Below are positions 2,409-63,918 of a stretch of 64,000 bases of DNA, piece after piece. Below the pieces are notes generated by a model. That model was not told the origin of the DNA, made no database searches, and saw only the letters and a program-made list of their open reading frames with translations. Each line of letters begins with the position of its first letter. Position 1 is the first letter of the stretch. Origin of the DNA: Sphingomonadales bacterium (GTDB taxonomy: Bacteria; Pseudomonadota; Alphaproteobacteria; SMXS01); the NCBI GenBank assembly GCA_022844405.1, contig JALHLV010000011.1:1-64000 (forward strand), given 5' to 3'. The position numbers and the translations under genes are program-made.

Positions 2409-3859
2409 TGCGCGGTCTCGTTCAGCGCGGCCAGCAGCACCCGGTCGTAACCGAAATAGCCGGCTTTCTTCAGGAAAGCGGGACGCAGGCCCGTGTAGCG
2501 GAAATCGCCGACCAGGCGCCCTTCGTGCAGGGCGCCGCCATAATCGAAGGTGAACAGGTCCTGCATCAGGATCACGTCGCCTTCCAGGCCCAGCACCTCG
2601 GAAACCTGGGTGATGCGGCGGATGCCGTCGCGCATGCGCTCGATCTGCACGATCATGTCGATGGCGTTGGCGATCTGGGTGCGCAGGCCGCGCTCGCTCA
2701 TGGAATGGCCGCCCATGGAAATCATGTTCTCGATGCGGATCAGCGCCTCGCGCGACGAGTTGGCGTGCACCGTGCTGAGCGAGCCGTCATGGCCGGTATT
2801 CATGGCCTGCAGCATGTCGATGGCTTCCTCGCCGCGAATTTCGCCCAGGATGATGCGGTCGGGCCGCATACGCAGGGCGTTCTTCACCAGGTCGCGCATG
2901 GTGATCTCGCCGCGGCCCTCGATGTTCATGGGCCGGGTTTCCAGCCGCACCACATGCGGCTGCTGGAGCTGGAGTTCGGCGGCGTCCTCGATGGTGACGA
3001 TGCGCTCGCCGATGTCGATCATCCGCGACAGGGCGTTGAGCAGGGTGGTCTTGCCCGAGCCCGTGCCGCCCGACACCAGGATGTTGAGGCGCGATGCGGC
3101 GGCGATCTTCAGCGTGGTCGCCATGGGGTTGGAGAGGTTCTTCTGCCGCGCCATGACGTCGAGCGTGATCTTCTTCTGCGAGAATTTGCGGATCGAGATC
3201 GACGTGCCGTCGAGCGCCAGCGGCGGCGCGATGATGTTGACGCGGCTGCCGTCGGGAAGGCGGGCATCGACCAGCGGCACGGACTCGTCGATGCGGCGGC
3301 CGACCCGGCTGACGATGCGCTGCGCCACGTTCATCACATGGGCGTTGGAGCGGAAGTTGACGTCGGTCAGCGTGAGCTTGCCGGCGCGCTCCACATAGAC
3401 CTTGCTGGGGCCGTTCACCATGATGTCGGTGACGGTCTCGTCGTTGAGCAGCGGCTCCAGGGGGCCGAAGCCGACCATTTCGTCGACGAGCTGGCGGGTG
3501 AGGTCCTGCTGCTCGCGCTGGCCCAGCACGATGCGACGCTCCAGCAGAATCTCGGACACCAGGCCGCCGAGCTGCGACTGCAGGTCCTCGCGCGACAGCC
3601 GCACAGCGGTCGACGCGTCGATGCGCTCGAGCACTTCGGCCAGGATCTCGTCACGGTTGCCTTCGGCGGCCGAGCGCGACTGCGCGCCCTTTTGCATGGC
3701 GAGCGCGTGGGCGATGTCGTCGATGCCCGTTGCCGGCGCCGGCTCGATCGGTTTGGCGGCAACGGTCTCGGGGACGTTGGTCCGCGCCTCGGCCGCCGGC
3801 TGCACCCGAGAGCGGCTGCGTGTATTGAGATCGGCGTTGGGGGGGCGGCGACCGAACAT
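2405..3859 (-). CDS. cpaF: Tad pilus assembly ATPase CpaF/TadA
   Basis: 484-residue secretion ATPase of the VirB11/PilB superfamily. The N-terminal 90 residues are variable; the catalytic core shows Walker A (VSGGTGSGKTTLLNAL), an Asp box region (ERIVTIEDAAELQL), Walker B (PDRIILGEIRGEEA) and the His box (NTGHDGSLSTVHANS). All nucleotide-binding motifs look intact, so the motor should be active. CpaF powers both polymerisation and retraction of Flp pili from the cytoplasmic face. The gene follows cpaE by 6 bases and overlaps tadB, consistent with one transcript running from flp through tadC. Confidence 0.96.
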   Translation of the reverse strand: MFGRRPPNADLNTRSRSRVQPAAEARTNVPETVAAKPIEPAPATGIDDIAHALAMQKGAQSRSAAEGNRDEILAEVLERIDASTAVRLSREDLQSQLGGLVSEILLERRIVLGQREQQDLTRQLVDEMVGFGPLEPLLNDETVTDIMVNGPSKVYVERAGKLTLTDVNFRSNAHVMNVAQRIVSRVGRRIDESVPLVDARLPDGSRVNIIAPPLALDGTSISIRKFSQKKITLDVMARQKNLSNPMATTLKIAAASRLNILVSGGTGSGKTTLLNALSRMIDIGERIVTIEDAAELQLQQPHVVRLETRPMNIEGRGEITMRDLVKNALRMRPDRIILGEIRGEEAIDMLQAMNTGHDGSLSTVHANSSREALIRIENMISMGGHSMSERGLRTQIANAIDMIVQIERMRDGIRRITQVSEVLGLEGDVILMQDLFTFDYGGALHEGRLVGDFRYTGLRPAFLKKAGYFGYDRVLLAALNETAQ

Positions 3860-19117: not shown

Positions 19118-19471
19118 ATGTCTTTCTGGGTCTACATCTTGAGGTGCAGCGACGGTTCGTATTACACCGGGCAGACAGACAATATCGAGAAGCGGCTCGC
19201 TGAACATCAGAACGGCATCAAGTGCGTCTACACGCGTCGGCGAAGGCCGGTCGAGCTGGTCTTCACCGAGTATTTTTCTACCCGAGAGGAGGCCCGCGAT
19301 GCCGAGAGGCGGATCAAGGGCTGGTCACGGCTGAAGAAAGAAGCGCTCATCCGGCGCGACTGGGACGAACTGGTGAGATTGTCGAACCTCAAGGCAGAGT
19401 CGCTTCCCCTCTTCGCTCGACCTGTTGAAGACGATGGCGTGTGCAACACTCAAACCTCACCGTGTCCCTGA
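19118..19471 (+). CDS. Small GIY-YIG nuclease family protein
   Basis: 117 residues with the UvrC-like GIY-YIG core at the N-terminus: VYILRCSDGSYYTGQT supplies the VYIL and YTG elements, followed by EKRLAEHQNG and catalytic-type Arg/Glu positions (EARDAERRIKGWSRLKKEAL). Such stand-alone proteins are common and their biological role is not established. The last codons (Ser-Pro-Cys-Pro-stop) are read from the left arm of a hairpin repeat: the TGA stop at 19469-19471 lies inside CCGTGTCCCTGAG. The gene's end has therefore been rewritten by, or evolved with, the repeat. It converges on the quinoprotein gene. Confidence 0.9.
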   Translation: MSFWVYILRCSDGSYYTGQTDNIEKRLAEHQNGIKCVYTRRRRPVELVFTEYFSTREEARDAERRIKGWSRLKKEALIRRDWDELVRLSNLKAESLPLFARPVEDDGVCNTQTSPCP

Positions 19472-19532
19472 GCTTGTCGAAGGGCCTGCATCAGCTTTCG
19501 TGCAAGGCCCTTCGACAAGCTCAGGGACACGG
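19460..19532. repeat. REP-like palindromic repeat, copy 1 (with GIY-YIG gene)
   Basis: Left arm 19460-19490 (31 bases, starting CCGTGTCCCTGAGCTTG) pairs with right arm 19501-19532, with a 10-base loop TCAGCTTTCG. One base is missing near the loop on the left arm (GGCCTGCA against TGCAAGGCC). Pairing extends outward by three more bases (TCA/TGA). Two sister copies are at 60181 and 63845. The stem differs from them by a compensatory T-A for C-G pair (19475 with 19517). It lies between convergent genes. Confidence 0.92.
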
Positions 19533-19689
19533 TGAATATTATTGTTGCACGACTACAGTTGTGTCTCACTCCGGGGGTGGCCCATAGGGAATCGAACTGG
19601 TGAAATGAGCGAGGGTTTCGGTGACGCTTTACTAAATCTGCACGCTGCTGAAGGTTAGGCTCACCGAGCTCAGCCCGCGGACAGCGCGC

Positions 19690-60037: not shown

Positions 60038-60064
60038 GTTCAGCGCGGATTGGAGCGCTTTCAG

Positions 60065-60084
60065 CCAAGGCGGAATCGCCTTGG
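60065..60084. repeat. Short perfect hairpin CCAAGGCG/CGCCTTGG
   Basis: CCAAGGCG (60065-60072) and CGCCTTGG (60077-60084) are perfect complements around GAAT. It lies between the Rieske terminator and a larger hairpin. No T-tract follows, so it is not a terminator; it is probably part of an intergenic repeat unit. Confidence 0.7.
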
Positions 60085-60108
60085 CGTCCGAAAGCCGCGG
60101 CGACGACT

Positions 60109-60145
60109 GCAAGAGTGGTTCAGCATTAGCTGAAACCACTCTTGC
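60109..60145. repeat. 16 bp hairpin with one bulged base
   Basis: GCAAGAGTGGTTCAGC (60109-60124) pairs with GCTGAAACCACTCTTGC (60129-60145) around ATTA, with one extra A on the right arm. It sits directly before palindromic repeat copy 2. Confidence 0.8.
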
Positions 60146-60180: not shown

Positions 60181-60254
60181 CCGTGTCCCTGAGCTCGTCG
60201 AAGGGCCTTGCATCGACATTCGTGCAAGGCCCTTCGACGAGCTCAGGGACACGG
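60181..60254. repeat. REP-like palindromic repeat, copy 2
   Basis: Perfect 32 bp arms (60181-60212 and 60223-60254) beginning CCGTGTCCCTGAGCTCG enclose the 10-base loop TCGACATTCG. The stem is identical to copy 3 and differs from copy 1 by a compensatory pair and one missing base. It lies between the convergent Rieske and ACAD-like genes. Confidence 0.95.
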
Positions 60255-63844: not shown

Positions 63845-63918
63845 CCGTGTCCCTGAGCTCGTCGAAGGGCCTTGCACGGACGCGGATGCAAGGCCCTTCG
63901 ACGAGCTCAGGGACACGG
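63845..63918. repeat. REP-like palindromic repeat, copy 3
   Basis: Perfect 32 bp arms (63845-63876 and 63887-63918) identical to copy 2, with the unrelated 10-base loop CGGACGCGGA. It lies 50 bases after the phosphatase stop and 38 bases before a putative convergent gene end. Confidence 0.95.

Follow-up and report, generated by a model that had tools for sequence, protein, structure and literature searches.

A small GIY-YIG endonuclease gene and the palindromic hairpin in which it ends make up a compact cassette in the genome of a Sphingomonadales bacterium. Sequence comparison indicates that orphan copies of the hairpin are present elsewhere in the genome, that related palindromes lie beside related genes across phyla, that the units on the two flanks of one gene resemble each other, and that gene and hairpin are mostly present or absent together within the genus. 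The product of the gene very probably recognizes the hairpin, because this hairpin family hugs a GIY-YIG subfamily across phyla and tracks the gene in the genus. That the nuclease also drives the spread of the hairpin is about an even prospect. A sequence-only reading of this DNA had proposed both functions; the association upholds recognition, while spread is something that we infer.

The gene is located on the + strand at 19118..19471 of the window, the 64,000-nucleotide stretch of DNA analyzed here, and is an open reading frame of 117 amino acids. A Pfam profile search identifies GIY-YIG (PF01541) at residues 3-74, with an E value of 4.5e-19, as the sole match. Structure prediction gives a confident domain for residues 1-90 and a disordered tail, and the final residues of the protein are encoded by the repeat element. 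Residues Y6, Y16, G18, R26, H30, E63, K67, and K74 are invariant among 30 relatives and appear to be of the catalytic type. UPF0213 proteins and Slx1 are the top sequence and fold matches; the nearest folds are UPF0213 structures (1zg2, 1ywl), with Slx1 matching more weakly. Slx1 is a branched-DNA nuclease that acts with Slx4. To our knowledge, neither UPF0213 proteins nor Slx1 are known to pair with a genomic repeat. The PADLOC search gave no match to the 117-residue protein.

Repeat-like sequence also extends into the reading frames of several relatives. In five loci (L072, L077, L078, L088, and L116), the C-terminal tails of the GIY-YIG proteins, such as VRPEPVEG and HPSTSSGRT, resemble a translation of the repeat. 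In nine loci (L076, L105, L110, L118, L123, L130, L140, L145, and L146), a SpoU-type RNA methylase is predicted to follow in the same frame as GIY-YIG, after a linker that resembles repeat, and the methylase Pfam match is confirmed for L105 and L123. The record titles of eight of these nine loci are those of sphingomonads. At L128 (10001-11800) the GIY-YIG frame runs on into an FGGY carbohydrate kinase, and by reading it also does so at L082, from position 3451.

The TGA stop codon of the gene (19469-19471) is inside the left arm of the hairpin, as the sequence-only reading had stated, and the 73-base span which it described (19460-19532) is confirmed. The perfect arms are 31 nt each, with 100% complementarity and a loop of 17, giving a full span of 19457-19535. 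The stop codon falls in the left arm (19457..19487), as does the unit CTGAG-CTTG-TCGAAG, whose inverted counterpart is in the right arm (19505..19535). An outer stem, formed by GTGCAACA (19441..19448) and TGTTGCAC (19543..19550), adds 8 bp to the predicted fold. Compared to shuffled sequences, the fold has a z-score of -13.6 as DNA and -14.4 as RNA. No Rfam match was found in the window. Two more copies are located in the window, at 60181..60254 and 63845..63918, and neither has an adjoining nuclease gene, again in agreement with the first description. TGCA-type outer ends are common to several copies. The repeat adjoins the GIY-YIG gene of the window on the 3′ side only, which counts against the explanation favored here. 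A further repeated stretch (60053-60141) lies beside the 60.2-kb hairpin and has many copies in the congeners.

When the arm is counted genome-wide, a check proposed in the sequence-only reading, the source genome (3.78 Mb) contains 29 forward and 31 reverse matches to CCGTGTCCCTGAG, compared to 0 for the reversed-pattern control. These arm matches correspond to about 30 hairpins, a copy number far above chance. Across the genus, hairpin and GIY-YIG gene go together, save in one incomplete genome. The gene is present in the source genome and in the congeners G001 and G003 (E near 1e-52), which have 43, 18, and 17 core matches, respectively, and neither the gene nor hairpins were found in G002, G005, and G006. 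The exception is G004 (78% complete), with 11 core matches and no GIY-YIG gene found. It counts against the favored explanation.

In G001 and G003, gene and hairpin are positioned as in the source genome, and matches to the element in the congeners often begin about 19 bases ahead of the hairpin. The 60.2-kb hairpin is part of a segment that is missing at the matching site in these two genomes; this site is not a clean empty one, and no target-site duplication was found. Two database loci, L069 and L070 (titled Rhizobium sp. Q54 and Candidatus Kuenenia), have the same locus as these congeners, and at least the Candidatus Kuenenia title looks mislabeled or contaminated.

The association extends well beyond the genus. 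A search with six close homologs against one genome per species gave 80 loci, with 59-86% identity, whose record titles include Proteobacteria, Nitrospira, Cyanobacteria, Chloroflexi, Planctomycetota, Dependentiae, and others. Within 300 bp of these 80 related genes, the repeat core is 37 times as dense as it is elsewhere in their loci. The core is found in a flank of 60/77 genes and of 47/719 control ORFs, confirming the expectation of the sequence-only reading that the hairpin sits near GIY-YIG genes more often than near random ones, and it is found on both sides of 42/77 genes and only 5/719 control ORFs. The flanks of the remaining 17/77 relatives do not contain the core, another point against the favored explanation. 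Inverted repeats bracket the gene in 37/77 cases, compared to 13/759 for control ORFs and 3/215 for short control ORFs.

A second set of 19 type-2 loci, obtained by matching against 190 genomes sampled from the class, shows the same arrangement, with 14/19 genes bracketed, many of them by repeats with a different sequence between the two boxes. Over the 99 loci, the repeat generalizes to CTGAG-X-TCGAAG, which is 32-fold enriched near the gene and has 242 matches, compared to 2 for the reversed motif. X is mostly CNNG, but many loci have a small hairpin, 15-27 bases long, as X. Moreover, the units flanking one gene are more alike than the units of different genes (0/5000 permutations), with the caveat that P values for the association are rough because the loci are partly related.

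The explanation that we favor, with roughly even confidence in it as a whole, is a site-specific nuclease in a cassette with its cognate palindrome, with the orphans as dependent copies and with spread driven by the nuclease. The gene product would be a small, site-specific GIY-YIG endonuclease that takes as its cognate site the CTGAG-X-TCGAAG palindrome in which its own gene ends, and the approximately 30 orphan hairpins would depend on this compact cassette. Once the palindrome is single-stranded or extruded into a hairpin, as may happen on the lagging strand, its two conserved boxes would be bound by the enzyme, which would cut near the foot of the hairpin. The freed or repaired hairpin would then be copied into new intergenic sites. 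Binding, cutting, the preference for single strands, and spread by cutting are the putative steps of this mechanism. Points in favor of spread are the cassette arrangement, the orphan copies, and the pattern of presence and absence within the genus.

However, the association would look no different for a site-specific nuclease that serves some other purpose. In Nat Commun in 2025, Chenal, Veyrier and colleagues reportedly described a family (Ssn) of GIY-YIG nucleases that cut single strands site-specifically and have cognate repeats in the genome. An Ssn-like enzyme in the window would cut its own repeat in single-stranded DNA, thereby controlling DNA uptake or recombination, and the repeats would be multiplied by other means or selected instead of being mobilized by the nuclease. 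This is a substantial possibility, though less likely than not. It has in its favor the same enzyme superfamily, the many cognate repeats, and the role reported for Ssn in Neisseria. The two systems share a small GIY-YIG protein and a many-copy repeat: the 117-residue protein is of this kind, and the window hairpin has many genome copies, its status as the cognate repeat coming from association. Single-strand cutting and an effect on transformation are traits reported for Ssn. On the other hand, the repeat is at the edge of the gene in most relatives, as a compact cassette, and gene and hairpins are lost jointly in the genus, both of which look like a mobile element. We do not claim the pairing of GIY-YIG genes and repeats itself as new, because of the Ssn family.

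The sequence-only reading had drawn an analogy with REP/RAYT systems (REPtron, REPIN), and there are several similarities. In both, a gene lies at or between palindromes, orphan copies are present, and the repeat variant is matched to the gene; the palindrome flanks the gene on the 3′ side in the window and on both sides in just over half of the relatives. However, REP/RAYT systems use an HUH tyrosine (Y1) transposase, whereas the window gene encodes a GIY-YIG nuclease, and their GTAG tag is absent from the window hairpin (19457-19535). With a different class of enzyme and a different tag on the repeat, the system falls outside REP/RAYT as strictly defined. Could the hairpins nevertheless belong to a RAYT or another transposase, with the GIY-YIG gene a bystander in repeat-rich intergenic DNA? 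The genome does have four matches to Y1-type transposases, and repeats of this kind do gather between genes. However, the core is within 1.5 kb of none of these four genes, and the RAYT-like genes of the genome carry no such hairpin; a RAYT of the source genome serving the hairpins was rejected on this ground. Control ORFs in the same loci, including short ones, are also rarely flanked, and the units on either side of a gene are alike, making this alternative highly unlikely.

It is just as improbable that the hairpin is solely the transcription terminator of the gene, as its great stability as RNA at the gene end might suggest, since no T-run directly follows it, the repeat of the relatives is upstream as often as downstream of the gene, and the copies conserve a long sequence, beyond pairing. 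It may nonetheless contribute to termination as an additional role. The nuclease and its cognate palindrome account for more of the evidence than does either a terminator alone or a RAYT beside which the nuclease is a bystander.

A second subfamily of small GIY-YIG genes has a layout like that of the window gene, with other repeats. Besides UvrC, the source genome has seven further small GIY-YIG matches, and six of these paralogs (L032-L037) have tagged repeats on both sides, in inverted orientation. The tag is GTCAT in five of the six loci and GTCAC in L033, and the L034 gene is within one inverted tag pair (C10:122478-122958). Overall, the genome has 150 CGTC-type tags, compared to 5 in the control, and they often form inverted pairs. 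In a sample of 42 loci of this subfamily, which includes loci orthologous to each other, 31 are bracketed by inverted repeats beyond every shuffle, compared to 6% of mismatched flank pairs, and most of these repeats carry the GTCAT tag.

The short stems of the repeats around the paralogs carry a CGTC-type tag on their outer end, and, as judged from their sequence, these repeats are of the form of the CGTC REP super-family. CGTC REPs are short tagged palindromes, mostly of Alphaproteobacteria, which apparently have no dedicated transposase, as none was found beside them (Di Nocera et al. 2013, PMC3733652). They have a CGTC tag at one end, a stem of 8-9 bp, and a CCA-like tail, which the window hairpin, with its CTGAG-X-TCGAAG units, does not have.

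What multiplies the CGTC REPs was left open by Di Nocera et al. (2013, PMC3733652). Small GIY-YIG genes lie between CGTC-type repeats in most of the cases sampled here, and the window subfamily lies beside a second widespread palindrome family. With GIY-YIG genes beside both families, the question can be put to a direct test, using proteins about 95 residues long. We tentatively suggest, at somewhat less than even confidence, that stand-alone small GIY-YIG nucleases, without a transposase, mobilize a super-class of palindromic repeats comprising CGTC REPs and the CTGAG-X-TCGAAG family, with every enzyme and its particular repeat packed into a cassette a few hundred bases long. Should spread indeed be driven by the nuclease, then a second class of enzyme would stand behind REP-like repeats. 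Among the papers searched, none connects bacterial GIY-YIG proteins with REP repeats, and none gives the sequence of the 15-mer core. Possible novelties are the view of gene and repeat as a cassette, the CTGAG-X-TCGAAG family, and the connection to CGTC REPs. The two repeat families are also found nested, as CCGTGTCC hairpins are located inside inverted CGTC-type tag pairs at two places in the source genome (G000 C2:99824-99995 and C10:130581-130752).
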